This document shows, piece after piece, positions 20,639-52,334 of a DNA stretch of 64,000 nt. This DNA comes from Paenarthrobacter sp. A20. GTDB taxonomy: Bacteria > Actinomycetota > Actinomycetes > Actinomycetales > Micrococcaceae. Position 1 is the first letter of the stretch, and the number at the start of each line of letters is the position of its first letter. The translations under genes and the position numbers were made by a program. The notes under the pieces were generated by a model, which saw nothing but the letters and a program-made list of their open reading frames with translations, searched no databases and had not been told where the DNA came from. The stretch spans positions 1,674,001 through 1,738,000 of the forward strand of contig NZ_JALJWH010000001.1 of the NCBI RefSeq assembly GCF_024168825.1. The letters run 5' to 3'.

Positions 20639-20650
20639 CGAGGTAAAGCC

Positions 20651-21508: not shown

Positions 21509-21523
21509 TCCGGAGGAATAGTC

Positions 21524-35837: not shown

Positions 35838-36027
35838 GGAGATCCTTCCGGACAATATTGTGGTTGGCGCTGCTACACATCGAGGGATGCGGTTGTCATT
35901 CGGAACGCGCATCCTCTAGAACCTGGAACGTTGGGAGCGGCCGTCAAAGGAGACCTCGAACGCCCCTCAGCCTCTGGACTGGTGCGTGCATCACAGGGAG
36001 AAGCAAGGTTCCCCCCCGAATTTATGT

Positions 36028-36039
36028 GTACGATCGTAC
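36028..36039. promoter_or_regulatory. TetR-type operator, identical to 16994-17005
   Basis: GTACGATCGTAC, within TGTGTACGATCGTACGC, between two tandem MFS genes and 191 bases upstream of the MFS start at 35837. The exact 12-base identity with the site in front of the GMC operon links two loci 19 kb apart. Confidence 0.6.
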
Positions 36040-36040
36040 G

Positions 36041-37578: not shown

Positions 37579-37630
37579 TTGCCAGTCTTGGGCCTGCCCC
37601 GGCTGGGCGGTGCACCGTGAAGGAGTCCGA

Positions 37631-38305
37631 ATGACCAAAGTTCTATATCTCTACGGTGGCTGGCCGGGACACAACCCTTACGGCGTTGCGGACTGGACGC
37701 GGTCCTTGCTGCAGAGTCTGGATTTCGAGGTGCAGGAATCGACGGATATCTTCATCCTCGACCAGGATCTGACCGATTACGACCTGATAATCAACAACTG
37801 GAACAATGCCCTCCTCAGCGAGACTCTGACCCCGTCCCAGGAAGCACATCTGCTCGGCGCGGTGGAGGCAGGGACCGGATTCGTCTCATGGCATGGTGGT
37901 GGGGCGGCGTTCAGGGGCAGCGTGATGTACCACATGATGCTGGGCGCCGACGTGTTTTACCACCCTGCAGGTGAGGGAACGCGTCATCCATACCCGTTGT
38001 ATGTGATGGATCGGGACCATCCGATTACCCGTGGAATACAAGACTTCCATGCTGCCAGCGAGCAGTACTACATGAACGTAGACCCCCGCAATCACGTACT
38101 TCTTGAGACAGTGTTCGACGGCGAACACATGCCCTGGCTTGATGGCCAGCGCATGCCGCAAGCGTGGACCAAAGACTGGGGCAAGGGCCGGGTGTTCTAT
38201 AGTGCCCTCGGCCACTACTTGGACGACCTAACAGCTGCCCCGGTAGAGGAAATCGTCCGACGAGGTCTTCTTTGGGCACGCCGTAACCATCAATCCGCCG
38301 ACTAA
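37631..38305 (+). CDS. ThuA-like domain protein
   Basis: 224-aa protein of the ThuA/class-I amidotransferase-like fold. ThuA takes part in trehalose use through 3-keto-trehalose in rhizobia. Here the fold begins KVLYLYGGWPGHNPYGVADW, followed by SWHGGGAAFRGS, where glutaminases would have their nucleophile Cys; no Cys is seen. The end is GKGRVFYSALGHYLDD, a hallmark of ThuA. ATG 37631 has AAGGAG five bases upstream. Its stop overlaps the convergent UPF0303 stop by four bases. Context places it with the 3-keto-sugar operon. Confidence 0.87.
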   Translation: MTKVLYLYGGWPGHNPYGVADWTRSLLQSLDFEVQESTDIFILDQDLTDYDLIINNWNNALLSETLTPSQEAHLLGAVEAGTGFVSWHGGGAAFRGSVMYHMMLGADVFYHPAGEGTRHPYPLYVMDRDHPITRGIQDFHAASEQYYMNVDPRNHVLLETVFDGEHMPWLDGQRMPQAWTKDWGKGRVFYSALGHYLDDLTAAPVEEIVRRGLLWARRNHQSAD

Positions 38306-38778
38306 ACCCCCACCGTCTTCAGATAGCTCCGAATCCCGTCCACCACCAGTTGGTGGTCGTCGTCGGACGACAGCCCGGACACCGTGATCGCACCGATCAC
38401 GCCGGCGCCGCGCACCCGGATAGGGAACGAGCCTCCAGCCAAGGTGTAGTCCTCGTGGGCGAGCCAGCCGCCACCAACAGGACTGTGTCCTCGGGCGGAG
38501 AACTCCTCGGACAGCAACGCCGTGCTGTGCTCAAAGCGCAGCACCGACGCGGACTTGCGGCGGATCCACTCCTCCTGGTCCGAGGTTGCCCCCGGCAGGA
38601 CGCAGCGGAAGAGCACGATGTTATGACGGCGGATGTCGATGGCAACCCCGAAGCCGGCAGCGATGGCATGGTTGGCGATCAGCGAACCGAGCCGCCAGGC
38701 GTCGTGGTTGTCGAAGGCTGCGAAGACCAGCTCTTCCTCGTGCTGCTTCAGCTCAGCAATGCGCGGCGAGTCGGTCAT
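38302..38778 (-). CDS. UPF0303/GlcG-like (heme-degrading-domain) protein
   Basis: 158-aa protein of the UPF0303 family (PF03928, GlcG/HbpS-like fold). It contains VAIDIRRHNIVLFRCVLPGATSDQEEWIRRK and the Gly-rich end GGSFPIRVRGAGVIGAITVSGL. Members often sit in carbohydrate operons with Gfo/Idh proteins, but their biochemical role is unclear. It is the last gene of the 13-gene operon, overlapping the upstream oxidoreductase by four bases (ATGA). Confidence 0.85.
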   Translation of the reverse strand: MTDSPRIAELKQHEEELVFAAFDNHDAWRLGSLIANHAIAAGFGVAIDIRRHNIVLFRCVLPGATSDQEEWIRRKSASVLRFEHSTALLSEEFSARGHSPVGGGWLAHEDYTLAGGSFPIRVRGAGVIGAITVSGLSSDDDHQLVVDGIRSYLKTVGV

Positions 38779-39797
38779 GACGCACCCTCTACTGCGTCGG
38801 CCTCGTAGCTCAAACCGATCTGCCGGCGCATCTCGTCCATCGCCGCCATGATGGCCACGGTCTCGGCCGGGGGAAGGACGGTTCCAGCAGTAGAACCATC
38901 CCGAACCAGACGCTCCAGCTCAGCGGCCTGGAACTGCATCCCACGGCTGCCGACGGGCTCGTCATACCGTTCAATAACGCTGCCGTCCACGGCGTGGACT
39001 GTGAAAGGAACGGGGTTGTACCAAGTGTGCTCGATGTCGATCCAGCCGTTGGTTCCGATCACCATTGCGCGGTTGGCGCTGGCGGCATCGAGCTCACAAT
39101 CAACAATCGCCTGGGCGCCGTTGGTGTATTCGAAGATCGCAGCGGTCTGCCGGTCGACGCCCGTCGCGGACATGGAGGCGCTGGCCCGGATTGCGGCCGG
39201 CGTTCCCAGGATGTCAAACGCGAAGGAGACCGGATAAATGCCCAGGTCCAGCAGCGCTCCGCCGCCGAGCGCGGGATCGTTGAGCCGGTGCGCAGGGTCT
39301 TGGGGGAGGCTCTGGTTGTGGCTGGCGACCACCTTGCGGACCTCCCCGATGGTGCCGGCAGCGATGATGTCGCGAACGCGGATCATGTGCGGGAGGAACC
39401 GGGTCCACATGGCTTCCAGGGCCACGAGCCCCTTGGACTCGGCCACGTCAATGATGTCCTGTGCTTCGCGGGCGTTCATGGTGAACGACTTCTCCACCAG
39501 CACGTGCTTGCCAGCGTTCAAGGCCAGCAGCGCATTGGCGTGGTGGAACGGGTGCGGTGTGGCGATGTACACCACGTCAATCAACGGGTCAGCCACCAGA
39601 TCCTCATAGCAGCCATGCGCGGTGGCCACGCCATACTGCTCGGCGAACGCCTTGCTCGAGTCCAGCGAACGGGACCCCACGGCCTGCACCGTGAAGCCGT
39701 TCTCGTTCAGGTCCTTCGTCTGCAGCCCCGCAATAAAACCGGTGCCGAGGATTCCCCAGCGGATGGTTCCGTCGGAGGTGCCATTGCTGAGAGTCAC
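38775..39797 (-). CDS. Gfo/Idh/MocA-family oxidoreductase
   Basis: 340-aa oxidoreductase. The Rossmann start is IRWGILGTGFIAGLQTKDL. The EKP-type motif is EKSFTMN, with the catalytic Lys kept and Pro replaced by Ser. The C-terminal domain has LGGGALLDLGIYPVSFAFDILG, typical of the trans-dihydrodiol/xylose dehydrogenase-like branch. The start is GTG 39797 with AAAGGA upstream; the long ATG-initiated extension to 40109 lies over the upstream gene and is not credible. Likely one of the redox steps of the 3-keto-sugar pathway. Confidence 0.88.
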   Translation of the reverse strand: MTLSNGTSDGTIRWGILGTGFIAGLQTKDLNENGFTVQAVGSRSLDSSKAFAEQYGVATAHGCYEDLVADPLIDVVYIATPHPFHHANALLALNAGKHVLVEKSFTMNAREAQDIIDVAESKGLVALEAMWTRFLPHMIRVRDIIAAGTIGEVRKVVASHNQSLPQDPAHRLNDPALGGGALLDLGIYPVSFAFDILGTPAAIRASASMSATGVDRQTAAIFEYTNGAQAIVDCELDAASANRAMVIGTNGWIDIEHTWYNPVPFTVHAVDGSVIERYDEPVGSRGMQFQAAELERLVRDGSTAGTVLPPAETVAIMAAMDEMRRQIGLSYEADAVEGAS

Positions 39798-39801
39798 GTG
39801 C

Positions 39802-40686
39802 CTAGTCCTTTGTTGGGTCGGAAATTGGGTACGCCACAAACGCAAAGCGCCCGGAATCCGGCGACCAGCTGTTGACGTTGAGGGTACCTTGGCCGCCGAA
39901 GAGTGGCCATGTATGGAGGGGAGTGGTCCAGTCCTCGGTCGAAACAAGCACGACGTCGACCGGCAAGTCGGCGGGGTGGCCTTCCGTTCCGCTGGGGAAT
40001 CGGATGTAGCTGGCGAAGCGCCCATCGGGGGAGACGTGCGGAAACCAGTCGACGGTATCGGACTCGAGGAGCTGCTCGAATTCGTTGCCGTCGATCGTGA
40101 TCCGGGCAAGCTGGGCGTGGCCGGGTACCGAGCTGAACGATTCTGTGTTCAGGTACAGCCACTCCCCATCCGGCGAGTACTCCGGGCCGTCGCAGTGACC
40201 GGACCCGACATCAACGCGGGCGGCAGCACCGCCGTCGGACGCCAGGGTCATCAGGCGGCCCGGCTGCGTAAAGTCGCCCGCCTCGATGCCCACGTAGGCG
40301 AGTTCCTTTCCGTCAGGGCTGACTCCGTGGAGGAAGTGGAAGGAACCGTCGTCGTCAGTGATCCTGGTGGCCGGGCCACCGGAAAGCGCGGCACGGTAGA
40401 TGTGGCCATCGTTGGCGGAGAGGAAGATGTCCTTGCCGTCAGGTGCCAGAACGTGATCGTTGTTGAGGTCCGGGACGCCACTCAGCGGAACAGCCTCCAG
40501 GGAACTGGCGGACAGATCAAAGCGCCACAACTTTCCGTCCCCGTTGAGGACGAGTGCCTCGCCGTCGAGGGTCCAGTTGGGCGCCTCCAGCAGCACGTCA
40601 TCAGCGGAGTACACCAGCTCGGCCTGGCCGGTGACCGACGCGATCCAGACTTCGCAGCGCTGCCCGGGTTGAAGGGCGCGGATCAC
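39802..40686 (-). CDS. TolB-like beta-propeller protein
   Basis: 294-aa protein built of WD40/PD40 repeats of the TolB type: GVSPDGKELAYVG, YSPDGEWLYLNT, VSPDGRFASYIRF and WSPDSGRFAFVAYP. No signal peptide is present, so it is predicted cytoplasmic. It starts at GTG 40686, overlapping the DUF1080 gene by four bases. Homologues of this size are common in glycoside operons with Gfo/Idh proteins, and some related propellers are oligoglycoside-processing enzymes, but no catalytic role can be read from the sequence. It may bind or process an imported oligosaccharide. Confidence 0.85.
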   Translation of the reverse strand: MIRALQPGQRCEVWIASVTGQAELVYSADDVLLEAPNWTLDGEALVLNGDGKLWRFDLSASSLEAVPLSGVPDLNNDHVLAPDGKDIFLSANDGHIYRAALSGGPATRITDDDGSFHFLHGVSPDGKELAYVGIEAGDFTQPGRLMTLASDGGAAARVDVGSGHCDGPEYSPDGEWLYLNTESFSSVPGHAQLARITIDGNEFEQLLESDTVDWFPHVSPDGRFASYIRFPSGTEGHPADLPVDVVLVSTEDWTTPLHTWPLFGGQGTLNVNSWSPDSGRFAFVAYPISDPTKD

Positions 40687-41570
40687 TCTGACACCTCCGT
40701 GCCGATAGGCGTGAGTTCCTTAATACGGATATTCCGCCAGCGGCATTGCGCTCCGACACCCCAGCGTGCCTCGCCGAAGTACGAGTCGTTGTCGTGGACC
40801 TCCAACGCGATATGCCCGCGTTCGCCGAGCACGTCCAGGACATCGGACGGGTTGTAATCGGGCGAGTCCAGGGTGGCGGTGTCAAGCTCGGCGATCTTGA
40901 GGCCATTGACCCAGGTCGTTATAACAGGAAGCGCACCCACGCAACGGATCCGAAGCTCGTTCCAGTCGTCCCAGCGCCAGGCATTGAGGAAATCGTCGAC
41001 GTCGGCCGCGTAGCTCAGTCGGGCACGCTTTTCTTCGGTGACTGGTTCGACAGACGAGGTGGGGTCATCGGCGATCAGGCCAGTCGGCCGTCCCGAGGTG
41101 TCGCGGGCTACGTCCACGGCGAACGGTACAGCCGAGAAACTCGCCAGTCCGTTGCCGAAGAACCCGCCGATGCCGCCGGACGGACGGTGGTCCACCAAGA
41201 CCTGGAAGCCTTCCCAACTGTCAGGCAGGCGTCGAAGCATGACGCCAGTATCTGCAGGCCAGTCGGGCCGCATTTCCAGGACCAGTTCAAAGTCACCGTA
41301 GGCCTTCTCCGTGACGAGGTATCCGCCGTAGCCGCTCCCCGGGGAGTCCTGTTCGCCCACCAGCACACCGTTGTCCACGAACCACTTCGCTGGATGCTTC
41401 TCGGGCTCGACCGGAAGTTCCCTTCCGTCTTGCGCGAAGAGATCCAGGACGGAAGGGCCACCCGGGTACAAAGATCCGTAAATGCGGGGCACGGTTCTCC
41501 AACCGGACAGAGTGGTGCCGTCGAACAGGGGGACGAACCCGGCGTCCTCGTGAGTTTCTGTCTCAGCCAC
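40683..41570 (-). CDS. DUF1080 protein, 3-keto-disaccharide hydrolase-like
   Basis: 295-aa concanavalin-like beta-sandwich of the DUF1080/3-keto-disaccharide hydrolase family. Start: FVPLFDGTTLSGWRTVPRIYG. Other family marks are YGGYLVTEKAYGDFELVLEMR (a classic DUF1080 strand pair) and the C-terminal GHIALEVHDN...CRWRNIRIKEL. Members act on glycosides oxidised at C3, releasing a keto-sugar. No signal peptide is seen, so it is cytoplasmic. This gene is the best pointer that the operon works through 3-keto glycosides. It overlaps the TolB-like gene by four bases and lies three bases from the isomerase gene. Confidence 0.88.
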   Translation of the reverse strand: MAETETHEDAGFVPLFDGTTLSGWRTVPRIYGSLYPGGPSVLDLFAQDGRELPVEPEKHPAKWFVDNGVLVGEQDSPGSGYGGYLVTEKAYGDFELVLEMRPDWPADTGVMLRRLPDSWEGFQVLVDHRPSGGIGGFFGNGLASFSAVPFAVDVARDTSGRPTGLIADDPTSSVEPVTEEKRARLSYAADVDDFLNAWRWDDWNELRIRCVGALPVITTWVNGLKIAELDTATLDSPDYNPSDVLDVLGERGHIALEVHDNDSYFGEARWGVGAQCRWRNIRIKELTPIGTEVSE

Positions 41571-41573
41571 GCC

Positions 41574-42575
41574 CTAGTCCTTGCTGCTGAAGGCGGCGTC
41601 GAAGGAGGTCTGGGAGGCAGGGAAGTCGAACTTCTTCAGGGCGGCGAGGGCTTCGGGTGCGCCGTGGAGACGGTCCATGCCGGCGTCTTCCCACTCAACG
41701 GAGATGGGTCCGTTGTAGCCGATGGCGGTGAGGGCGCGGAAGGACGATTCCCAGGGCACATCGCCGCGTCCGGCGGAGACGAAGTCCCAGCCACGGCGCG
41801 GGTCGCCCCAGGGCAGATGGGAGCCCATCACAGTGTTGCGGCCGGTGGGGCGGAGCTTGGTGTCCTTGCAGTCCACGTGGTAGATCCGGTCCTTGAAGTC
41901 CCAGATGAAGGAGACGGGGTCGATGCCCTGCCACATGAAGTGGGAGGGATCCCAGTTAAGGCCGAACGCTTCGCGGTGGCCGATCGCTTCGAGGGTCCGG
42001 ACGGTGGTCCAGTAGTCGTAGGCGATCTCACTCGGGTGGACTTCGTGGGCGAAACGGACCCCGCATTCGTCGAAGACGTCCAGGATGGGGTTCCAGCGGT
42101 CGGCGAAGTCCTGGTAGCCGGCCTCGATGACTTTCTCGGGGACGGGCGGGAACATGGCGACGTACTGCCAGATGGAGGAACCGGTGAACCCGACCACGGT
42201 ATCCACCCCGAGCGCGCGGGCGAGGCGTGCGGTGTGTTTCATTTCCTCGGCAGCGCGTTGGCGGACGCCTTCGGGATCGCCGTCGCCCCAGACGCGCGTG
42301 CCGACGATGGCTTCGTGGCGGAAGTCGATGGGGTCATCGCAGACGGCCTGGCCTTTGAGGTGGTTGGAGATGGCCCAGACCTTCAGGTTGTACTTCTCCA
42401 GGATGGCGAGCTTGGACTCGACGTAGCCGGGCTCGTCCCAGCGCCAGGCGTCAAGGTGGTCTCCGGAGACGGCGATTTCCAGGCCGTCGTAGCCCCAGCC
42501 CGAGGCTAGGCGCGCGACTTCCTCGAAGGGGAGGTCGGCCCACTGGCCGGTGAACAGGGTGTACGGGCGGGACAT
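41574..42575 (-). CDS. Sugar phosphate isomerase/epimerase-type TIM barrel
   Basis: 333-aa xylose-isomerase-like protein. It starts RPYTLFTGQWADLPFEEVARLASGWGYDGLEIA. Metal-site features include HEVHPSEIAYD (Glu), FGLNWDPSHFMWQG (Asp/His), VDCKDTKL (Asp) and ISVEWEDAG (Glu). Relatives include 3-keto-glycoside-processing enzymes (the LgdB and C-glycoside lyase types), which use the metal for beta-elimination or hydration. It lies two bases upstream of the next gene's end in the operon, so it is tightly coupled. Probably the C-O cleavage or isomerisation step. Confidence 0.88.
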   Translation of the reverse strand: MSRPYTLFTGQWADLPFEEVARLASGWGYDGLEIAVSGDHLDAWRWDEPGYVESKLAILEKYNLKVWAISNHLKGQAVCDDPIDFRHEAIVGTRVWGDGDPEGVRQRAAEEMKHTARLARALGVDTVVGFTGSSIWQYVAMFPPVPEKVIEAGYQDFADRWNPILDVFDECGVRFAHEVHPSEIAYDYWTTVRTLEAIGHREAFGLNWDPSHFMWQGIDPVSFIWDFKDRIYHVDCKDTKLRPTGRNTVMGSHLPWGDPRRGWDFVSAGRGDVPWESSFRALTAIGYNGPISVEWEDAGMDRLHGAPEALAALKKFDFPASQTSFDAAFSSKD

Positions 42576-42577
42576 GG

Positions 42578-43768
42578 TCAGGCTCCTTCAGTTGCGGTGC
42601 TGGAAAGTTGGATCAGTGAGCTTTTGGCGGCAGCGGACTCTTCCACGGCGGCGAGGATGTGCTGGACGTTCAGGCCTTCCTCGAACGACGGCGACGGAGC
42701 CTCACCGGCCGCGATGGCAGTCAGGAAGTCCCGGATCTGGTGGGTGAAGGTGTGTTCCCAGCCGATGATGTGGCCCTGCGGCCACCAGGCATCGAGGTAG
42801 GGGTGCTCGGGTTCGTTGACCAGGATCCGCCGGAAACCCTGCTCCCGGACGGGCACGGTGGCGTCCAGGAAGCCGAGTTCATTGAGGGCTTCAAGGTCGA
42901 AGAGGATCGTGCCCTTGTCGCCGTAGATTTCGAGTTTGAGGGAGTTCTTCTGGCCCGTCGCTACCCGCGAAACCTCTACTGAGGCGATTGCTCCGGAGGC
43001 GAGGGTCAGCGTGGCCCAAGCGGCGTCGTCGACCGTGACATCTTCCAGCCCATTAGCGCCGGGGCGACGGTCCACGAAGGTGTGCAAGCGGCCTGAAACC
43101 TCGGTGACCGCGTCACCCAGGAGGAACAGGACCTGGTCGATGGCGTGGGAAGCGATGTCGCCCAGGGCACCGGAACCGGCCGTTTCCTTCCGGAGGCGCC
43201 AGGTCATGGGGGACTCGGCATCCGAGAGCCAGTCCTGCAAGTACGCGGCGCGGACGTGGCGGATGGTGCCGAGGCGTCCTTCGGCGATGAGTTCCCGGGC
43301 AAGCGCCAGGGCCGGGACACGGCGGTAGTTGAAGCCGATCATGGACTGCACGCCGTTGGCCCGCGCGGAGGCGGCTGCGGCCACCATCAACTCGGCCTCA
43401 CCCAGGGTGTTGGCCAGCGGCTTCTCCACCAGCACGTGTTTCCCGGCGGCCAATGCCGCAATGGCGATTTCGGCGTGCATCCAGCCGGGCGCGCAGATAT
43501 CGACGATGTGGATGTCGTCGCGTTCAATCACGGAGCGCCAGTCGGTGGCGGACTCGGCCCAGCCATACTTGGCTGCTGCCTCGGCCACCTGGGTGGCGTC
43601 CCGGCCCACCAGCACTTTCTGCTCGAAGGCCGGGACGTCGAAGAAACTGGCCACGTTCCGCCACGCATTCGAGTGGGCCTTTCCCATGAAGGCGTAGCCG
43701 ATGGCGGCCACGCCGAGTGGTTGATGCGCCTGGGAAGGATGGTCGGATGGGTGGGCGGGGGTGGTCAT
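42578..43768 (-). CDS. Gfo/Idh/MocA-family oxidoreductase
   Basis: 396-aa oxidoreductase, among the longer members of the family. The Rossmann start is GVAAIGYAFMGKAHSNAWRN, and the catalytic Lys is in LVEKPLANTLGEAE. The C-terminal half has GALGDIASHAIDQVLFLLG with the active-site His, then GYEH-type insertion PEHPYLDAWWPQGHIIGWEHTF. This subgroup includes glycoside 3-dehydrogenase-like proteins in actinobacteria. It lies between an isomerase-type barrel and another Gfo/Idh gene. Likely catalyses C3 oxidation or the reverse reduction. Confidence 0.9.
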   Translation of the reverse strand: MTTPAHPSDHPSQAHQPLGVAAIGYAFMGKAHSNAWRNVASFFDVPAFEQKVLVGRDATQVAEAAAKYGWAESATDWRSVIERDDIHIVDICAPGWMHAEIAIAALAAGKHVLVEKPLANTLGEAELMVAAAASARANGVQSMIGFNYRRVPALALARELIAEGRLGTIRHVRAAYLQDWLSDAESPMTWRLRKETAGSGALGDIASHAIDQVLFLLGDAVTEVSGRLHTFVDRRPGANGLEDVTVDDAAWATLTLASGAIASVEVSRVATGQKNSLKLEIYGDKGTILFDLEALNELGFLDATVPVREQGFRRILVNEPEHPYLDAWWPQGHIIGWEHTFTHQIRDFLTAIAAGEAPSPSFEEGLNVQHILAAVEESAAAKSSLIQLSSTATEGA

Positions 43769-43789
43769 GTTCTTGTTCCTCGCTGATTC

Positions 43790-44911
43790 TTAGAGAGTGG
43801 CTGTTTCGGGTGCCCAGTCCTCAGGGAGGGCCGCCGAGACAGGTGCGTTGCTGGTGACGTCCACGAACGTGCCCGACTCCACGGACTCGGCGATCGAGAC
43901 CATGCTGTCCAGCACGTGGTAGGCAAGATCGCCCGTGGCGCGGTGCGCAGTGCCGGAACGCAAGGCGCGGGCCATGTCCAGCACACCCAGGCCGCGGCCG
44001 TTGGCCGGACCGGTGGCAGGGATGATCTCCGGTTCTTCCGCGCCCGGACGCCAGAGCTTCAGGTCGCCGTCGAAGTAGTTCGGGTCCGGCAGGGACAGCG
44101 TAGCCTCCGAGCCCGTGATTTCGACGAAGCCCATCCGCAGGCGCGGCGACTCAAAGGAGAACACGCTGTGCGAGGACTGCCCGCCCTCGAACTGCGCCAT
44201 CGCGGACACGTGCGTGGGGACCTCGACGGCGAATTCCTCGCCGGCTTTGGGACCGGAACCAATAATGCGGGTCGCCTTCGCCGAGGAGCCGACGGCGGCT
44301 ACCTTGCGGACCGATCCGAACGTCTGGATCAGGGCGGTCAGGTAGTACGGACCCATGTCGAACAGCGGACCGGCACCGTGCTGGAACAAGAACGCCGGGT
44401 TCGGATGCCACGACTCCGGACCGGGAGTCTGGAACGTGGTCATACCGGTCAATGGGGTACCGATGTCGCCACGTTCGATGATCCGGCGTGCCGTCTGCAA
44501 CCCTGCGCCCAGGAACGTGTCCGGGGCGGTGCCCAGGCGGATGCCGGCGGCATCAGCGGCCTTGAGCAGACCCAGCCCCGACTCGCGATCCAACGAGAAG
44601 GGCTTCTCGGTCCAGACGTGCTTGCCCGCGTTGACCGCCGCAGTGGCCACCTCCACGTGCGCTGCCGGGATGGTCAGGTTCACAATGATTTCGACGTCGG
44701 GATGGTTCAGTGCCAGCTCGGGCGCACCGAACTCCGGGATCCCATATTCCTTGGCCCGTGCTTCGGCGGCCTCGACGAAGAGGTCCGCGATCACCAGGAC
44801 CTTCAGGTCAGGGAAGGTGGTGAGGTTGTCCAGGTACTGCTTGCTGATGTTGCCCGCGCCGATGACGGCAACGCCCACCGGGCCTGTACGGGTGGAGGGT
44901 GCGAAGCTCAT
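43790..44911 (-). CDS. Gfo/Idh/MocA-family oxidoreductase
   Basis: 373-aa oxidoreductase. The Rossmann start is VGVAVIGAGNISKQYLDNL, the catalytic Lys is in TEKPFSLDRESGLGL, and the C-terminal domain has GPLFDMGPYYLTALIQTFG. Together these place it in the branch of predicted sugar dehydrogenases often paired with xylose-isomerase-like proteins. It overlaps the downstream isomerase-type gene (44908-45654) by four bases. Substrate unknown. Confidence 0.9.
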   Translation of the reverse strand: MSFAPSTRTGPVGVAVIGAGNISKQYLDNLTTFPDLKVLVIADLFVEAAEARAKEYGIPEFGAPELALNHPDVEIIVNLTIPAAHVEVATAAVNAGKHVWTEKPFSLDRESGLGLLKAADAAGIRLGTAPDTFLGAGLQTARRIIERGDIGTPLTGMTTFQTPGPESWHPNPAFLFQHGAGPLFDMGPYYLTALIQTFGSVRKVAAVGSSAKATRIIGSGPKAGEEFAVEVPTHVSAMAQFEGGQSSHSVFSFESPRLRMGFVEITGSEATLSLPDPNYFDGDLKLWRPGAEEPEIIPATGPANGRGLGVLDMARALRSGTAHRATGDLAYHVLDSMVSIAESVESGTFVDVTSNAPVSAALPEDWAPETATL

Positions 44912-45654
44912 GCCTTGGCTCCTTCTGCTGCGGCGTTGAGGTACGCGAGGCTTTCCGTGATGCCTTCGAAGATGTCGCCGGAGTAGTCGTCGAATTCCAC
45001 CACGCCAACTTCCAGGGACTTGGCAGCAGCGATGACATCCAGGACCGGAATGGTGCCTTGGCCAGCGGGCTGCTGAGCCTTGGTATCGGTGTTGCCCGGG
45101 CCGTCCTTAATGTGGATGAGCTTCACGCGGTCGCCGAGGCGGGCCAAAAGTTCCACGGGGTCTTGCCCACCAACGGCAACCCAGTACGTGTCTACTTCGA
45201 GGACGAGTTCCGGATCCAGCAGTCCTTCGAAGTATTCCAGGGCGGTCTTGCCCTCGATGGTGGACTCCAGCTCCCACGCGTGGTTGTGGTAACCCACGCG
45301 GACGCCATACTCAGCACCCTTCTTGGCTGCAGCGTTGAGCTTGGCGGCCGTGGCCTGAATGGTCTCGGCGTCCTGCCAGTGCTCCGCGGGAAGGAACGGA
45401 TCGATCACCGTGGTGATGCCCAGTTCCTTGGCCGCGGCAAAGATCTCGTCCTGGTCCTGGCTCAACAAGGGTGCGTGGCCGGACGGAGCAGTGAGGCCGT
45501 TTTCCTTCAACGCCGCGCCGAGTTCCTTGGCGGTGGCCACGAAGTTGTACGGCTCAACCTGTGTAAAACCGATCTCGGCAACCTTCTTGATGGTTCCAGG
45601 CAGGTCCTCCTGGATGGCATTGCGGAGGGTGTACAGCTGGAGTGAGTAAGACAT
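44908..45654 (-). CDS. Sugar phosphate isomerase/epimerase-type TIM barrel (short form)
   Basis: 248-aa barrel starting SYSLQLYTLRNAIQEDLPGTIKK, the hallmark of a subgroup of xylose-isomerase-like proteins found beside Gfo/Idh genes. Metal ligands are suggested by GYHNHAWELES (His/Glu), LEVDTYWVAVGG (Asp), IHIKDGPG (His/Asp) and VVEFDDYSG (Glu). AAGGAA lies upstream of ATG 45654. It follows the permease gene by 58 bases. Second barrel of the operon, so the pathway probably has two isomerisation or elimination steps. Confidence 0.9.
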   Translation of the reverse strand: MSYSLQLYTLRNAIQEDLPGTIKKVAEIGFTQVEPYNFVATAKELGAALKENGLTAPSGHAPLLSQDQDEIFAAAKELGITTVIDPFLPAEHWQDAETIQATAAKLNAAAKKGAEYGVRVGYHNHAWELESTIEGKTALEYFEGLLDPELVLEVDTYWVAVGGQDPVELLARLGDRVKLIHIKDGPGNTDTKAQQPAGQGTIPVLDVIAAAKSLEVGVVEFDDYSGDIFEGITESLAYLNAAAEGAKA

Positions 45655-45712
45655 TGGGTTCCTTTTCGGGAGTTGGATTTTCCGGGAATTTAGGGACGTG
45701 CGGCCAGTCTAG

Positions 45713-46606
45713 CTAGCGGCCTGCGAGGGATCCGCCGATGCCGCCGACGCTGAAGTATTTGTTGAGGGCGGCGAAGACGATGATGGGTGGGAGCATCATG
45801 ATGACGGCGAGGGCCATGACACCGGACCAGTCGGTGAGGTTTTGTTGGAAGAAGGATTGGACGCCCATGGGGAGGGTGAAGATTTCGTTGGAGCGGAGGA
45901 AGACGATGGCGACGAGGTAGTCGTTCCAGGCTAGGAGGAAGGCGAAGATGGCGGTGGAGAGGATGCCTGGGAGGGAGTTGCGGAGGACGACTTTGGTGAA
46001 GGAGCCGAAGACGGAGCAGCCATCGATCCAGGATGCTTCTTCGAGGCTGATGGGGATGGAGTCGAAGTAGGCGGCCATCATCCAGGTGGCCACGGTCATG
46101 GTGGAGCCGACGTAGATGATGGTCAGGCCCATGAGGTTGTCTACCAGGCCCATGGCGGCGAAGAGGATGAAGAGGGGGACCACTGAGGTGATGATGGGCA
46201 GGGATTGCATGACGAAGAGCAGCAGGGAGTAGCCGGAGACGGCTTTGGATCGGCCGCGGGAGAGGACGTAACCGGCGGGTGCGGCGACGGCGACGGAGAC
46301 GATCACGGTGGAGAGGGTGGTGACGAGGCTGTTTTGGAGCCAGACGCCGGCGAGGGTTTTGGTGAAGACGCCGGTGATGTTTTCGAAGGTCAGGCCTGTG
46401 GTGGTGCTGTTCGGTGCCGGGGTGAGGGCCAGGATGACGGTGACCATGATGGGGACCAGGACGATCGCGGTGATGGCCAGGATCAGGGCGAACCGCCACC
46501 AGCGTCCGCGCATGCCGGCTTCGGAGAGGGTGCGGCGGGTTTTGCCGGTGGGGGTGATGCCGAGGGCGGGCCCGGATTCGGGGTGGGCGTGAAGTACTGC
46601 GCTCAT
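45713..46606 (-). CDS. Sugar ABC transporter permease, MalG type
   Basis: 297-aa permease. EAA loop EEASWIDGCSVFGSFTKVVLR; C-terminus FAALNKYFSVGGIGGSLAGR. It is a close paralogue of the permease at 23805-24662. The start overlaps the upstream permease stop by one base. The plus strand here has unusually repetitive codon choice (many GTG/GAT/GAG triplets), which produces a long His/Arg-rich shadow frame. Confidence 0.93.
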   Translation of the reverse strand: MSAVLHAHPESGPALGITPTGKTRRTLSEAGMRGRWWRFALILAITAIVLVPIMVTVILALTPAPNSTTTGLTFENITGVFTKTLAGVWLQNSLVTTLSTVIVSVAVAAPAGYVLSRGRSKAVSGYSLLLFVMQSLPIITSVVPLFILFAAMGLVDNLMGLTIIYVGSTMTVATWMMAAYFDSIPISLEEASWIDGCSVFGSFTKVVLRNSLPGILSTAIFAFLLAWNDYLVAIVFLRSNEIFTLPMGVQSFFQQNLTDWSGVMALAVIMMLPPIIVFAALNKYFSVGGIGGSLAGR

Positions 46607-47568
46607 TATTCGACGCTCGACTTTCGGATCTGGCGGTACAGGATGACCGAGACGACTACCAGGGTGACGGTCATGAGGAAGGCGATGGCGACGCCGGGAC
46701 CGGTAGCGAAGTCCTGGAAGACGGTGCGGTAGGCCAGGACGACCAGGGAGGTGGTGGCGTCAACGGGTCCGCCGCCGGTGAGCAGGTAGATGGTGGGGAA
46801 GTCGTTGACGCAGAAGATCGTCATGAGGATCCACGAGATGTAGGTGGAGCGGGCGATCAGCGGCAGGGTGATTTGGGTGAATTGCTGGAACCGGGAGGCG
46901 CCGTCCATGTTGGCGGCTTCGTAGACGGTGTTGTCCACGGAGGCCAGGGCTGCGGAGGTCATCATCATCATGAAGGGGAAGGAGACCCAGACTTTGAAGA
47001 TCATGACGGTCACGGCGGCCAGGGTGGGGTCTGCCAGGAACAGGGGTGTTCCGAGTCCGAGGTTGCGGAAGATGGACGGGATGAGGCTCTCAGGGGTGGC
47101 GACGAGCCAGTTCCAGGCGGTGGAGGAGACCACGATCGGGACGACCCAGGGCAGGAGGAGGAGGACCTTGAAGGTGCCCCCGGCGGGGATCTTGGTCCTG
47201 AGCAACAAGGCCAGGCCAAGGCCCACGGCCCAGGACCCGAACACGCCGACGATGGTGAACAGCAGGGTGAATTGGGCGGCTTTCCAGAAAGCCGGTGAGG
47301 ACAGGACCTGCTGGAAGTTCTCGATCCCGACGAAGTCGCCGGTTTGGATCAGGTTACCGTCGTGCGTGGCCTGGATCCCGGCTTGGAAGAGCGGGTAACC
47401 ATGGATCAGGACGAGCAGGATGACTGAGGGAAGCAGGAGCCAGAAGAACGTCCTGGACGTCTGCGCCGACAGCTTGCTTTTGCGGTTCCCGGTCCCGCCG
47501 CCGGACCCGCCGGGGGCGAGCCCCTTGCGGGCCCGGGCAAGGCCCGAGCTGGTAGTCGTGGAAGACAT
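46606..47568 (-). CDS. Sugar ABC transporter permease, MalF type
   Basis: 320-aa permease with a Gly/Arg-rich cytoplasmic N-terminus of about 30 residues and six membrane segments. EAA loop YEAANMDGASRFQQFTQITLP. Paralogue of the permease at 22834-23808. It lies 12 bases downstream of the binding-protein gene. No ATPase gene is present in the operon. Confidence 0.93.
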   Translation of the reverse strand: MSSTTTSSGLARARKGLAPGGSGGGTGNRKSKLSAQTSRTFFWLLLPSVILLVLIHGYPLFQAGIQATHDGNLIQTGDFVGIENFQQVLSSPAFWKAAQFTLLFTIVGVFGSWAVGLGLALLLRTKIPAGGTFKVLLLLPWVVPIVVSSTAWNWLVATPESLIPSIFRNLGLGTPLFLADPTLAAVTVMIFKVWVSFPFMMMMTSAALASVDNTVYEAANMDGASRFQQFTQITLPLIARSTYISWILMTIFCVNDFPTIYLLTGGGPVDATTSLVVLAYRTVFQDFATGPGVAIAFLMTVTLVVVSVILYRQIRKSSVE

Positions 47569-47580
47569 GATGGTGGCCGC

Positions 47581-48909
47581 TTACTTCTTCAGCACTGACT
47601 TGAGGCCGGACTCGAAGGCTTGCAGCGCGGACTTCGCATCAGTCTTGCCTGTCAGGACGGTCTGGGTGAACTGATTCAACGCCTGCCCACCATCCAAAGC
47701 AGCGAGATCAGCGCTGAGAGCTGTTCCCTGGGCGGCGAACGTCTTGGCGATCGGGACGTACTCATCGACAATCTTCACGTTGTTCGGGTCAGCAGTGAAC
47801 TCGGGCATTTCGGTGATGGACTTGAACACCGGCAGGGCATTCATGAGCTTTTGCTGCCACAGTTCCTTGAGCTTGCCCAGGTAGTAGACCACGAACTCTT
47901 CGGAAGCTTCCTGGGACGGAGTGTTGGTGTACATCATGATGTTGTTCGGGAAGATCAGGGCTGCCTTGTCTCCGTGCGGACCGGCGATCGGGCTCGCCAC
48001 CACGATGTCGCCGGAGGTGTCGCCCACGCGCTCGGGAACGCCCAAAGTCAACATGCCGTAGGCGGCCTTGCCGTCCTTCCACTGGGCGTTGAGGTTGTCC
48101 GTGGTGTAGCTAACGGCAGCAGGGTCAACGATGCCGTTGGAGACAAGCTCAAGCATGAACTCGATGGCCTCCACGTTTCGGTCGTTCATGACATCCAGCT
48201 GGCCGCCGTCCTTGCTGAAGACGCCGCCACCGTTGTTCAGCATCATCATGATCATCAGGTGGTTGCCGATATTATTGCCAGCGCCGGAACCCGTGGCGAA
48301 GCCAACAGCACCTATGCCCTTCATCTTCTTGCCCGCTTCCAGAAGCGAAGCCCAGTCCGTGGGAACCGCTACGCCTGCCTTCTCGAACAGGGACTTGCGG
48401 TACCAGAGCGGCCGGATATCCAGCTGCCACGGAACCGCTACGTAGCCCTTGTCCGTCTTGAACGGCTCCACCACGCCGGGCAGGAAGTCATCGAACTGGC
48501 CGTTGGACTTCAGCTTCTCAATGACCTTGTCCGCGTACGCGATCTGGCCCTGCTGCTCGAACTGGAAGGCCTGGAAGCCGCCGCCGGTGGACACTGCCGG
48601 GCCGGTCTTGGACGCGATGGCCGAGGAGAACGTCTGGTAGAAGTTGTTCCACTGGATGATCTGGTAGCTGGCCTTGGCGTTGTTCGCACCCGCGAAGCCT
48701 TCTGCGATCTTCTTGGCGGAGTCGTTGTAGGCCGGCGTAGCCCAGGGCATATCCCAGAACTTTACGGTTCCACCGGCGCCGCCCCCGCCGCCCTGGGTGG
48801 CTGAGCCACCGCCGCAGGCAGCCAGGAGCGGCACCGAGGCCGCTGCTGCCGTGAGGCCGAGGAAATTGCGGCGGGAGAAGGAACGGGTGGCTGCGGACTG
48901 AACATTCAT
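47581..48909 (-). CDS. Sugar-binding lipoprotein of ABC importer (Tat-type signal)
   Basis: 442-aa binding protein. The signal has SRRNFLGLTA (twin Arg 13-14) and the lipobox LAAC with Cys32, suggesting Tat export and lipid anchoring. ATG 48909 is chosen for the AAAGGA about 8 bases upstream; longer frames to 49170 are not credible. The mature domain is similar along its length to the binding protein at 21524-22837. It probably delivers the glycoside or rare sugar processed by the surrounding oxidoreductases. Confidence 0.93.
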   Translation of the reverse strand: MNVQSAATRSFSRRNFLGLTAAAASVPLLAACGGGSATQGGGGGAGGTVKFWDMPWATPAYNDSAKKIAEGFAGANNAKASYQIIQWNNFYQTFSSAIASKTGPAVSTGGGFQAFQFEQQGQIAYADKVIEKLKSNGQFDDFLPGVVEPFKTDKGYVAVPWQLDIRPLWYRKSLFEKAGVAVPTDWASLLEAGKKMKGIGAVGFATGSGAGNNIGNHLMIMMMLNNGGGVFSKDGGQLDVMNDRNVEAIEFMLELVSNGIVDPAAVSYTTDNLNAQWKDGKAAYGMLTLGVPERVGDTSGDIVVASPIAGPHGDKAALIFPNNIMMYTNTPSQEASEEFVVYYLGKLKELWQQKLMNALPVFKSITEMPEFTADPNNVKIVDEYVPIAKTFAAQGTALSADLAALDGGQALNQFTQTVLTGKTDAKSALQAFESGLKSVLKK

Positions 48910-49027
48910 AGTGATTCCTTTCGGGACCGGCAACGCGATCTCTGCGTTGATGTTCCGGTCCAGCTCAACTTTGAGGAGGGCAAACGGATACTGAATGGCT
49001 GGATAGTGCTGTTGTTGTAGAGCTCGG

Positions 49028-49843
49028 TTAGATGAGTGCTGTGATGGTTTCCGACAACACCGCGAAGCTGTGCAGGTCGGATGGGCTGGTGCCGGCGTCG
49101 AGGTGTTCCTTGAGCCGACGCCATGTAGCGCGGTGAGCGGATTCGTAGATCGTGGGAAGAAGCAGGTCACCTTGGGGCCCGGTGACTTTGATGGTTGCCG
49201 GCCACGCAGCGACCGGTTCCGGCAGCGTGACGCTGACGCCGCCGTCGTCGGTCAGCAAGGTGACTTTGACGACTGCCGGACAGGCGTTGGAGCGGACGCC
49301 CTGCAACGCAACCGGTGCGCCGTTGGCGAGTACCGCCGTCGCCGTGTAACCGTGCGGTCCGCGGCTCAGGACCCTGAGGCTCCCCAACGGTCCGGTGACG
49401 CGTACGACGGCGGCAAGATGGTCCGCGAGCAGCTCGCCGGAGTCGGTTCCCACCGGCGCGGTGGCCACGGAGTCGAGCACGGCGGCGCGGCCCGCCATGG
49501 AACGGACGGCATCCTCGGCTGCCGGGATGGCGGGGTTGGAGGCCCAGCGCTGGTCGAGGACAACGACGGTGCCCCTGTGTTGGGCTGCTGCCTGGAGCAA
49601 CTCCGTGTTTTCCGCGGCGGGGTTCACCACTACGATTCCGCGGGCTCCGGCGCTGATGGCCTCTACGGCGTGTGCGGTCCAGCCCGGTGTACCCGCGATG
49701 ACCTGGACGTGGGGCTGGTTGTCTCCGGCGGCTGGGCCGAAGGATTCGGGAAGGGACGCGACTGCCAGGGCAACCGCACCAGCTTCCTGGGCCTCCGGGG
49801 TGGCGCGGACGGTGTAGTGCTTGGTTTCCACGGGGGCGCTCAT
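49028..49843 (-). CDS. Unassigned protein, possibly a degenerate Gfo/Idh partner
   Basis: 271-aa protein with no family I can name. The N-terminal half alternates strands and helices like a Rossmann domain (AHAVEAISAGARGIVVVNPAA, GTVVVLDQRWASNP) but lacks a glycine-rich NAD motif and an EKP motif. The end (DAGTSPSDLHSFAVLSETITALI) resembles the terminal helix of Gfo/Idh proteins. It overlaps the upstream Gfo/Idh gene by four bases and lies 118 bases before the binding-protein gene. It may be a non-catalytic subunit or binding partner of that oxidoreductase; this is inference from shape and position. Confidence 0.75.
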   Translation of the reverse strand: MSAPVETKHYTVRATPEAQEAGAVALAVASLPESFGPAAGDNQPHVQVIAGTPGWTAHAVEAISAGARGIVVVNPAAENTELLQAAAQHRGTVVVLDQRWASNPAIPAAEDAVRSMAGRAAVLDSVATAPVGTDSGELLADHLAAVVRVTGPLGSLRVLSRGPHGYTATAVLANGAPVALQGVRSNACPAVVKVTLLTDDGGVSVTLPEPVAAWPATIKVTGPQGDLLLPTIYESAHRATWRRLKEHLDAGTSPSDLHSFAVLSETITALI

Positions 49844-50931
49844 GCGTGGGCTCCTTCGGCAACCGCGTGCTGGGCTGTGTGCTGTGCTTCGACATTGGCC
49901 ACCGTGGCATCGGCGATGTCCAACGCGAAGGTCAGGTCGTCAATCAGGGTTTGCGCAGACGGCGGTTGCTTTGCTCCTGCAGCCAATGCGGCCAGTTCGC
50001 GCCACTCACCTTCGTAGCCGTTGTGGTCGAAGGGGCCGTGAATGGTGGTTTCGTTGCCGCGGGTGAAGGTCGCCACGGCCGAACCCGCCTGGACGTAGGA
50101 CGGTGTGAAGTCGATGCGGAGGACGGCGTCGTCGGAAAACGCCTCGAAGCTCCACTCCGGCTTCCATGTGTTGTTCATGGCTGCGCGGAGCTCGATGGTC
50201 CGTGTGGGGGTGCGGAGCGGGATGACGTAGCCGAACGGGCGGACGTGGCGTGCTTCCAGTACTTCGATGTCCTTGAAGTCCGGTGTGAACCTGCGGATCA
50301 AGGGGAGGTCGTGGATGGCCAGGCCCATGATCCCGCCGCGGAGTGCGCCCTTGATGACCTCGGGGTCCGAGTAGTCCGGGGCGCCGCCGGCGGGACGGGT
50401 GATGATCTCAGTGGCGAAGTCCTCAAACCGGGCGTTGGGCGGCAGGACGATCGAGGAACGGATCGTGTGGACGTTGTCCGGCAGGTCTCCCCAGTTCTCG
50501 CTTGCGGCGAGCCAGCCGGGATCGAAGGTGTGCATGGCGCCCACGATGATCGGCACTCCCGTTTCTTCGCTGACGGCGGAGATCTGCGCTGCTTCTTCGG
50601 CGTTCATGGCAAATGGCTTTTCGCAGAGGACGGCTTTCTTGCCGGCGCGGCAGGCGGCGATGACCTGCGCGGCGTGGAACTGGTGCGGGCTGCAGATGGC
50701 CACGATGTCTACGGAGGCGTCGCCCAGGAGGGCGTCGATGCTGGTGCTGTGCGTGGCACCAACGCGGGCGGCCACGGACTCAGCGACGGCGGGGTCGACG
50801 TCCATGATGTGGCGGACGGTAAGGATGTCGCCCAAGCGGGCGAGTGACGGCAAGTGGATGGCCTGGGTGACCGGGCCGGCGCCGAGGATGCCAACTCCCA
50901 AAGTAGGGGCGACGTCTATGTGGCTGGACAA
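49840..50931 (-). CDS. Gfo/Idh/MocA-family oxidoreductase, first gene of the 13-gene operon
   Basis: 363-aa oxidoreductase. The Rossmann start is LGVGILGAGPVTQAIHLPSL, the catalytic Lys is in CEKPFAMNAEEA, and a conserved His is in GGIMGLAIHDLPLIRRF. It heads the leftward operon 50931-38302 and is translationally coupled to the unassigned gene after it. It is divergent from the ROK regulator at 51076; the 144-base gap contains inverted repeats (50987-51030) that overlap the likely promoter. Confidence 0.9.
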   Translation of the reverse strand: MSSHIDVAPTLGVGILGAGPVTQAIHLPSLARLGDILTVRHIMDVDPAVAESVAARVGATHSTSIDALLGDASVDIVAICSPHQFHAAQVIAACRAGKKAVLCEKPFAMNAEEAAQISAVSEETGVPIIVGAMHTFDPGWLAASENWGDLPDNVHTIRSSIVLPPNARFEDFATEIITRPAGGAPDYSDPEVIKGALRGGIMGLAIHDLPLIRRFTPDFKDIEVLEARHVRPFGYVIPLRTPTRTIELRAAMNNTWKPEWSFEAFSDDAVLRIDFTPSYVQAGSAVATFTRGNETTIHGPFDHNGYEGEWRELAALAAGAKQPPSAQTLIDDLTFALDIADATVANVEAQHTAQHAVAEGAHA

Positions 50932-50986
50932 GTTCAGTTACCTCTTCGTAAGCGGACTGGTGTGCTGCTCATCACAACCTAAAGGG

Positions 50987-51030
50987 ACTTTTGTCGAGCG
51001 TCAAGCAAAAGTTGAAATATTGCCGACAAA
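50987..51030. promoter_or_regulatory. ROK operator candidates
   Basis: ACTTTTG (50987-50993) and CAAAAGT (51006-51012) form a perfect 7-bp inverted repeat with a 12-base centre. TTTGTCG (50990-50996) also has an inverted copy CGACAAA at 51024-51030. Both lie between the divergent Gfo/Idh and ROK genes. Confidence 0.55.
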
Positions 51031-51075: not shown

Positions 51076-52293
51076 ATGACAACAGCCACCGGAAACGACG
51101 CCGGAAATACCTCCGTTCTGGAGGCTGGCAACCTTTCGCGTGCTGGCGACCTGTTCCAACTACTTCGCGACGGGCAAGCCCGCACCCGCGCCGAACTCGC
51201 AGTCACCACCGGGCTGGCCCGATCCACCGTCGCTTCCCGTATTGACGCCCTCATCAGTTCGGGTCTCGTGGGACCCGCCGGTGAGGCGAGCTCCAGCGGC
51301 GGCAGGCCGCCGTCGCGCTTTGCTTTCAACCCCGCCGCACGCGTCGTCCTCGCGGTCGACGTCGGAGCGACCCACGTGATTGTTGCCGTCACCGACCTCA
51401 GCGGCAGCATCCTCGCGGAGCGACGCCTCGCACAAGAAGTCGCCGACGGCCCCGAGATGGTCCTGGGCCGCGTCATCTCCGCGGGCCGTGAACTTTTGGC
51501 CGAGGCGGGCCGCCAAATTGGCGACCTCGCCGGCATGGGCATCGGCTTGCCCGGGCCCGTTGAACACGACACCGGGCGGCCCGTGAAGCCGCCCATCATG
51601 CCCGGGTGGGACGGATTCGACGTCGTCACGTACGTCCAGCGCTCGTTGCCCGTTCCCGTCCTGGTGGACAACGACGTCAACATCATGGCCCTCGGCGAAC
51701 GCACCGCGTACTGGCCGGACCACGACAACTTCCTGTTCATCAAAGTGGCCACCGGCATCGGCGCCGGCATCATCAGCAGCGGTGAGCTGCAGCGTGGTGC
51801 CAACGGCACCGCCGGCGACCTCGGCCACGTCCGGGTGCCACGCGGCGACGACGTCCTCTGCCGATGCGGCAACCACGGGTGCCTCGAAGCGCTGGCCTCA
51901 GGTCCCGCCGTCGCGCGTCAACTGCAGGCGCAAGGCCTGGAAGCGTCCACAGGTGCCGACGTCCTCCGGCTGGTCGGCGAGGGAAACCTGCAGGCGATCC
52001 AGGCGCTGCGCCAGGCGGGCCGCGATGTTGGCGATGTGCTGGCAACCGTGGTCAACCTGCTCAATCCGTCCATGATCATCATCGGCGGCAGCGTGGGGGA
52101 GGCCGGCGAACACCTCGTGGCCGGCATCCGCGAAGTGGTGTACCGACGTTCGCTGCCGCTGGCCACCACGCACCTGCGCATCGGCATCTCCATGGCCGGT
52201 GACCGCGCGGCCATCCTGGGTGCCAGCCAGATGGTCACCCAGCACGTTCTGTCGCCGGCAGTGATTGAGGCCACGCTCCAAGCGACGGGATAA
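51076..52293 (+). CDS. ROK-family transcriptional repressor
   Basis: 405-aa regulator. The N-terminal winged HTH (about residues 20-80) contains TRAELAVTTGLARSTVASRI. The sugar-kinase-like ROK domain has the phosphate loop AVDVGATHVIVAV and the zinc motif CRCGNHGCLEAL, both intact. It is divergent from the 13-gene operon and probably represses it until a sugar or keto-sugar binds. Length and order fit NagC/XylR-type repressors. The MFS gene 41 bases downstream is probably co-transcribed. Confidence 0.93.
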   Translation: MTTATGNDAGNTSVLEAGNLSRAGDLFQLLRDGQARTRAELAVTTGLARSTVASRIDALISSGLVGPAGEASSSGGRPPSRFAFNPAARVVLAVDVGATHVIVAVTDLSGSILAERRLAQEVADGPEMVLGRVISAGRELLAEAGRQIGDLAGMGIGLPGPVEHDTGRPVKPPIMPGWDGFDVVTYVQRSLPVPVLVDNDVNIMALGERTAYWPDHDNFLFIKVATGIGAGIISSGELQRGANGTAGDLGHVRVPRGDDVLCRCGNHGCLEALASGPAVARQLQAQGLEASTGADVLRLVGEGNLQAIQALRQAGRDVGDVLATVVNLLNPSMIIIGGSVGEAGEHLVAGIREVVYRRSLPLATTHLRIGISMAGDRAAILGASQMVTQHVLSPAVIEATLQATG

Positions 52294-52334
52294 GCCTTGT
52301 TCGGTGCCGTATGACGGGTGGTGGCGTGATAGCA

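Follow-up and report, generated by a model that had tools for sequence, protein, structure and literature searches.

Why would an operon keep a degenerate oxidoreductase directly beside its intact paralogue, and what kind of pathway would such a pair serve? The question is raised by a 64,000-nucleotide stretch of the 5.38 Mb Paenarthrobacter sp. A20 genome (G000:C1:1674001-1738000; hereafter the window), in which a sequence-only reading had proposed a thirteen-gene operon for a 3-keto glycoside or rare-sugar pathway. All thirteen open reading frames are indeed present on the minus strand at 38302-50931, each without internal stops. We consider it probable that they form an inducible set for uptake and oxidative deglycosylation, in which the first two gene products, an intact Gfo/Idh protein (GfoC) and a degenerate one (U12), act as a two-part enzyme. 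Sequence or predicted structure supports the parts and their families, the active-site residues of the eliminase, the operator site and the GfoC-U12 pairing; from these we infer the individual reactions, the assignment of Gfo proteins to steps, the heteromer and the substrate.

The new element of the locus is the GfoC-U12 pair, in which a degenerate Gfo/Idh protein is encoded beside its intact paralogue:

49840..50931, minus strand: GfoC, intact Gfo/Idh oxidoreductase, first gene of the operon; proposed catalytic subunit
49028..49843, minus strand: U12, degenerate Gfo/Idh protein without the nicotinamide adenine dinucleotide (NAD) motif or the catalytic lysine; proposed pseudo-enzyme partner of GfoC

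The count of four Gfo/Idh oxidoreductases in the sequence-only reading agrees with Pfam, but the protein that it had left unassigned, U12, shows the two-domain Gfo/Idh fold as well, so that the operon has five proteins of this fold. Homology of U12 to GfoC stands at 97.3% and does not exceed 4.6% for GfoA, GfoB, GfoD or any of five unrelated families, and a U12 profile matches 19 of 38 GfoC proteins at E<=1e-5. Unlike Gfo/Idh/MocA oxidoreductases, U12 carries neither the GxGxxG nucleotide-binding loop nor the lysine of the EKP motif, and none of 40 U12 members is matched by the Pfam Gfo/Idh models. The N-terminal region of the loop is missing from the U12 alignment; a loose G-x-G-x-x-[AGSC] occurs in four of 37 U12 proteins, always at other places (e.g. 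GPGWSA). The residue aligned to the EKP lysine is N in 37 of 48 cases and never K, and EK[PT] is absent from residues 41-110 in all 37 proteins. GfoC, in turn, retains EKP in 37/37; in an alignment of 25 GfoC proteins the His is invariant and the Asp is found in at least 90%, and a fixed 'HD' pattern failed to match six of the 37. The window's U12 has no match in NCBIfam. Two other identities were judged to be chance: a PA domain, seen in 10 of 40 members with 0.0028 at best, and HisF/CheY-type chimera chains (0.0072 and worse in a PDB sequence search).

U12 is under purifying selection: across 11 chosen pairs, its ratio of nonsynonymous to synonymous substitution rates (dN/dS) is 0.12-0.39 in all but one very close pair, where it is 0.71. 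Its ratio exceeds that of GfoC in all 11 pairs, and mean column identity is 39% in the U12 alignment (A2) versus 59% in that of GfoC (A3), indicating fast divergence of U12.

The two genes travel together. GfoC (E<=1e-60) was found in 26 of 295 genomes of the family, and U12 in the same 26. Among the fetched loci, every GfoC gene above 250 bits has U12 directly after it (38/38; 37 by script, and L094, where U12 is fused to DUF1080, by reading), and the GfoC stop and U12 start overlap by 4 nucleotides in 36 of 37 pairs, with the start codon chosen by rule. An order-wide scan for U12 matched 15 of 396 genomes, 11 of them outside the family, and in the 12 loci from these 11 genomes GfoC again stands beside U12, one locus (L100) being cut by the contig end. 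Even the extra GfoC-like gene of G252 is followed directly by a U12-like gene (L125, 88.7 bits). The nearest named relatives of both proteins belong to Arthrobacter and Paenarthrobacter, and a protein-database profile search with a wider U12 alignment yielded three new proteins among the 8000 candidates scored.

Two successive GfoC-U12 pairs occur in one locus, L095. A GfoC-U12 fusion protein, suggested by open frames of 632-782 amino acids around some U12 matches, was rejected: the long stretches lie in different frames, and in 25 of 25 loci with both genes the two are separate. A phylum-wide scan gave U12 matches in 9 of 396 genomes; besides the window's own, they cover 57-109 of 269 model positions (best 8.7e-6) and were not counted, since they are weak and partial, as expected from ordinary Gfo/Idh domains. 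Nor was G210 counted as a carrier, its match (8.8e-4, partial), the 27th for U12 in the family, being weak in the same way.

Because one-to-one co-occurrence, paralogy, frame overlap and the loss in one member of cofactor motifs that the other retains coincide, we argue for a predicted heteromeric Gfo/Idh enzyme in which U12 is a pseudo-subunit. U12 would have arisen by duplication of GfoC and then diverged, losing cofactor binding and the catalytic lysine while keeping the fold; the 4-base overlap would allow the two proteins to be made and assembled together, and U12 may serve as a structural partner shaping the sugar and aglycone pocket. On balance, we lean towards the broader view that U12 is the first member of an unnamed family of NAD-less pseudo-dehydrogenases, obligate and translationally coupled subunits of Gfo/Idh enzymes, with GfoC handling an imported glycoside and the dead subunit setting a pocket for variable aglycones. 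A purely illustrative analogy is provided by the two-subunit C-glycoside eliminases (CGEs), such as PuCGE in the available part of PMC10628242: the likeness lies in an extra subunit that contacts the aglycone and shapes its binding, and the difference in that the extra subunit there belongs to the barrel enzyme. The pair is tied to 3-keto-glycoside chemistry by a natural U12-DUF1080 fusion in another family of the order (L094:8652-10388).

It is also possible, though we think it distinctly less likely, that U12 is a separate protein of the Gfo/Idh fold and not a subunit of GfoC, for instance a sugar sensor, a GfoC chaperone or an NAD-independent enzyme. The fast divergence of U12 and the disappearance of its cofactor and lysine motifs would fit any role other than that of a dehydrogenase, whereas a stoichiometric partner best accounts for paralogy to GfoC alone, one-to-one co-occurrence and the 4-nucleotide overlap seen in 36 of 37 pairs. 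Several points weigh against a heteromer. Most loci in the 38/38 count were fetched for holding U12, which makes the GfoC search of 295 genomes the less biased figure, and L072 holds a broken U12-like remnant without GfoC, the sole such case seen. Four of the operon's other junctions overlap too, genes can be adjacent and overlap slightly without their products binding each other, and known Gfo/Idh enzymes are usually homo-oligomers. No Gfo/Idh heteromer with a pseudo-subunit appeared among the literature matches listed, in a search that left subscription papers mostly outside and used one poorly suited phrase; the one paper matching 'MocA family' and 'heterodimeric' concerns, in its accessible part, a flavin mononucleotide (FMN) reductase (PMC4500961).

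A heteromer of GfoC and U12 would be a half-dead Gfo/Idh glycoside oxidoreductase. The pair offers a testable case of a duplicated enzyme whose copy without chemistry is retained as a partner, bears on how specificity is gained in a large superfamily with many unknown substrates, and provides a functional hypothesis for a protein family without a convincing Pfam match.

What, then, would the pair act on? From position 50931 towards 38302, GfoC and U12 are followed by eleven further genes in this order:

47581..48909, minus strand: solute-binding protein of an ATP-binding cassette (ABC) sugar importer; SBP_bac_1, 1e-24
46606..47568, minus strand: ABC permease, MalF-like; BPD_transp_1; MalF model 96.7 bits against a cut-off of 392
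45713..46606, minus strand: ABC permease, MalG/GlcU-like; BPD_transp_1; under the equivalog cut-offs
44908..45654, minus strand: TIM_E, proposed 3-keto-glycoside beta-eliminase; AP_endonuc_2; 8bvk (AtOGE), 1.8e-22
43790..44911, minus strand: GfoB, Gfo/Idh protein by Pfam with weak PDB matches; candidate reductase or dehydrogenase
42578..43768, minus strand: GfoA, Gfo/Idh protein resembling levoglucosan dehydrogenase (LGDH); matches 4h3v and 6a3f; proposed NAD-dependent glycoside 3-dehydrogenase
41574..42575, minus strand: TIM_H, proposed 2-hydroxy-3-keto-glycal hydratase; AP_endonuc_2; 8ro4, 1.4e-37
40683..41570, minus strand: DUF1080 / 3-keto-disaccharide hydrolase protein; PF06439, 82.6 bits against a cut-off of 26.8
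39802..40686, minus strand: TolB-like propeller; PD40, 20.3 bits against a cut-off of 20.9; 2ojh, 1.2e-45
38775..39797, minus strand: GfoD, Gfo/Idh protein like dihydrodiol dehydrogenases and 3-ketoreductases; 2o48, 1.9e-50, and 3rbv, 3.4e-23
38302..38778, minus strand: UPF0303 / HbpS-like protein; PF03928, 2e-29; NF002696, 161.6 bits against a cut-off of 146

Pfam bears out most of the family assignments of the sequence-only reading (two AP_endonuc_2 barrels, the 3keto-disac_hyd or DUF1080 protein, the HbpS-like UPF0303 protein, the ROK regulator and ThuA), the TolB-like propeller falling just under its cut-off. The overlaps of a few bases that it saw throughout the operon are real for five of the 12 junctions (-4, -1, -4, -4 and -4), but five others have gaps of 2-21 nucleotides and two are wider, 118 nucleotides before the binding-protein gene and 58 before TIM_E. 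The importer likewise stands with its binding protein and two permeases, but the Pfam scan found no ATPase family among the 13 proteins, and the most likely start of the binding-protein gene is not 49170 but the ATG at 48909, which gives a lipoprotein-type start. GfoD has a possible GTG start at 39797.

Clues to the chemistry come from the two barrels. The best PDB sequence match of TIM_E is 8bvk, the deposited AtOGE structure, and the AtOGE residues E39, H66, H132, H134, D163 and H189 correspond to E34, H60, H123, H125, D155 and H181 of TIM_E, identical in six of six (counted by hand on the 8bvk alignment, with the roles as metal ligands or catalytic His taken from PMC10628242). We propose that TIM_E is an AtOGE-type 3-keto-O-glycoside beta-eliminase. 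TIM_H is similarly proposed to be a 2-hydroxy-3-keto-glycal hydratase, as it aligns over residues 17-327 of 333 with 8ro4, deposited as 2-hydroxy-3-keto-glucal hydratase; its closest PDB match, 2zds (1.7e-166), is deposited as a putative DNA-binding protein. A literature search for a paper on the hydratase gave no match. Among the Gfo/Idh proteins, GfoA is closest to an uncharacterised Kribbella enzyme (4h3v, 1.8e-139) and then to LGDH (6a3f, 5.8e-82), the best match of GfoB is a weak one to a scyllo-inositol/L-glucose dehydrogenase (1.9e-16), and GfoD matches the dihydrodiol-dehydrogenase-like 2o48 and the sugar 3-ketoreductase 3rbv. The DUF1080 protein is the sole PF06439 match in the genome, and the best solved relative of the TolB-like protein is the uncharacterised Agrobacterium Atu1656 (2ojh). 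Neither a flavin (GMC-type) glycoside 3-dehydrogenase nor a CGE-type second small beta subunit beside the barrel, whose family we take to be DUF6379, is represented among the Pfam families of the 13 operon proteins.

Taken in sequence, these proteins suggest a route of oxidation, elimination, hydration and reduction. A glycoside would enter through the binding-protein importer, energised by an ATPase from elsewhere; GfoA and/or GfoC would oxidise the sugar at C3 in an NAD-dependent reaction; the metal-site barrel TIM_E would expel the aglycone by beta-elimination; TIM_H is the candidate for hydration; and GfoB or GfoD may reduce the 3-keto-sugar to the free sugar, with NADH being recycled. The DUF1080 protein would be an optional second cleaving enzyme. 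The route, possibly acting on several glycosidic bonds, had been put forward in the sequence-only reading, and homology to AtOGE, 8ro4 and the DUF1080 family lends support to its sequence of steps. Against it stand the distance of the match between TIM_E and AtOGE, in which the weak ligand Glu233 of AtOGE lies outside the alignment, the uncharacterised status of the nearest solved relatives of GfoA (4h3v) and TIM_H (2zds), and the distribution of DUF1080, found in four of the 18 window-type loci described below and not found in the other 14.

Three other pathways have to be weighed. A single Gfo/Idh protein, or several, might be an NAD-dependent glycosidase that carries out all four steps in one active site, the barrels serving another intermediate; we regard this as unlikely. 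The entries 8tcd, 8tcs, 8tct and 8tdi reportedly stem from a 2024 Nature paper that describes an alternative pathway of glycan breakdown. A pathway for a free rare sugar or inositol, by epimerisation or dehydration of a keto-sugar, seems similarly improbable: both barrels match IolE weakly and Gfo/Idh proteins match IolG, but the IolE scores are 44 and 47 against a cut-off of 290, and the specific matches are to the eliminase, the hydratase and DUF1080. A levoglucosan operon, finally, is suggested by the resemblance of GfoA to LGDH and by the growth of two Paenarthrobacter isolates on this compound (PMC10066097), but we rejected it as very improbable on the LgdA scores and on a genome with a separate LgdA. 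With 329.7 bits, GfoA stays far short of the 650 required for LgdA (LevoglcsnDh, NF052479), and no protein of the window's genome exceeds that cut-off (best 346.6 bits). LgdA passes it in 12 of 31 genomes of the genus; in one of them, G177, the gene is found at C1:1141768, some 1 Mb away from the operon's GfoA at C1:153521.

The preferred route of C3 oxidation, elimination, hydration and reduction is not new in principle, although the sequence-only reading had not recognised the combination. Four-enzyme operons with the same logic are published, according to the accessible parts of two papers: GlycDH-AtOGE-AtHYD-Gfo for O-glucosides in Agrobacterium tumefaciens (PMC10628242) and lgdA-B1-B2-C for levoglucosan in Bacillus smithii (PMC7676230). 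With the former, the window shares C3 oxidation, a beta-eliminase barrel with the same aligned metal and catalytic residues, a hydratase barrel and a Gfo reductase. It differs in lacking a GMC-type protein among the 13, where the first oxidation in A. tumefaciens falls to the flavoenzyme GlycDH, and goes beyond that operon with its five Gfo/Idh-fold proteins and its DUF1080, TolB-like and UPF0303 genes. The lgd operon resembles it in its Gfo/Idh dehydrogenase, two barrels, Gfo reductase and sugar ABC importer, but has a LacI regulator instead of ROK and, in the part of the source available, no GfoC-U12 pair; GfoA, moreover, stays below the LgdA equivalog cut-off. The operon is thus an enlarged member of a published kind, and extends a recently recognised mode of glycoside breakage to a large, regulated gene set of soil actinobacteria with a candidate enzyme for each step.

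For DUF1080, the available text of PMC9007349 describes BT2157 as a 3-ketotrehalose hydrolase and Caulobacter CCNA_01705 as a putative 3'-ketolactose hydrolase. As with these two, the PF06439 protein of the window is encoded beside sugar 3-dehydrogenases; CCNA_01705, however, is proposed there to act in the periplasm for a membrane-bound dehydrogenase, whereas the window's protein sits among Gfo/Idh genes and is optional. In Bacteroides, growth on disaccharides requires the glycoside 3-dehydrogenase BT2158, as stated in the accessible part of PMC11300592. A literature search for this operon in Arthrobacter gave no match, a weak test, since the phrase was unlike the usual slashed spelling.

How widely is the gene set kept? 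The set is also found in further genera and in a second family, and the operon is therefore more than a chance assembly. The binding protein, permeases, TIM_E, GfoB, GfoA and TIM_H occur with GfoC-U12 in 18 loci of the family (L047-L058 and L065-L070; L052 has a different gene order, and the fetched contig stretch ends within L046 and L059), and L097 from another family has the same set with a weaker GfoA. The TolB gene directly follows TIM_H in seven of the 18. In a second arrangement (L060-L064), GfoC-U12, the importer and GfoB are retained together with a ThuA relative, and four of the five loci also have GfoA and TIM_H (L060 is cut); TIM_E was not seen in these five. GfoC shares its stretch with the same type of importer (permease 1 at least 60% identical) in 32 of 36 GfoC loci, and this co-occurrence suggests that GfoC-U12 may act on an imported compound. 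The same genome holds a second cluster (L073, G000:C1:2695501-2715500) with relatives of TIM_H (68% identity), GfoA (52%), GfoB (42%) and ThuA (34%), in which no match to TIM_E or U12 was found, and a GfoA paralogue, 81% identical, beside another Gfo/Idh gene and two permeases (L074, G000:C1:80501-100000).

The operon is best explained as inducible and controlled by a ROK protein through a predicted operator. The regulator had been noted in the sequence-only reading, and the following features lie upstream of GfoC:

51076..52293, plus strand: ROK-family repressor, divergent from the operon; Pfam ROK, 2.2e-62, and weak helix-turn-helix matches
50987..51012: putative ROK operator, inverted repeat ACTTTTG-N12-CAAAAGT, between the ROK gene and GfoC
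50976..51004, minus strand: promoter-like TTGACG-N17-TAGGTT, proposed from its position; overlaps the operator

The ROK gene lies 144 nucleotides from the operon, and many relatives have the same divergent neighbour. The full repeat matches once in the window when up to two mismatches are allowed (0.01 expected), and the perfect form of CTTTTG-N12-CAAAAG is the sole such site in the genome. At one mismatch there are four more genomic places, five per strand versus seven for a reversed control; as the control is no rarer, it is the perfect match that makes the site unique. Among 20 ROK-GfoC intergenic regions, from the window and from 19 loci with a divergent ROK gene at least 60% identical within 500 nucleotides, 19 retain the core TTTTGCTTGA and 14 the strict TTTTG-N12-CAAAA repeat. 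A scan for consensus promoters and terminators gave nothing above chance and did not report the TTGACG-N17-TAGGTT site, at which relatives have similar bases by eye. A gene for a CynX/NimT-like transporter of the major facilitator superfamily (MFS), under its family cut-off, follows the ROK gene directly (52311-53537) and stays beside it in several relatives.

At the other end, the ThuA gene (37610-38305, plus strand; Pfam ThuA) adjoins the operon as the sequence-only reading had said, but it probably lies outside the unit, because it is convergent with the operon and the stretches fetched from five UPF0303-bearing relatives (L104-L108) all lack a match to ThuA. Two MFS transporter genes stand in tandem on the minus strand just beyond it (34578-37336). 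Further away, the plus strand of the window carries a separate sugar cluster (17236-24662) with a GMC oxidoreductase, a thiamine pyrophosphate (TPP) enzyme, a barrel, a binding protein and two permeases; its barrel is of the xylose-isomerase type and weakly IolE-like, and the cluster may serve an inositol-type route.

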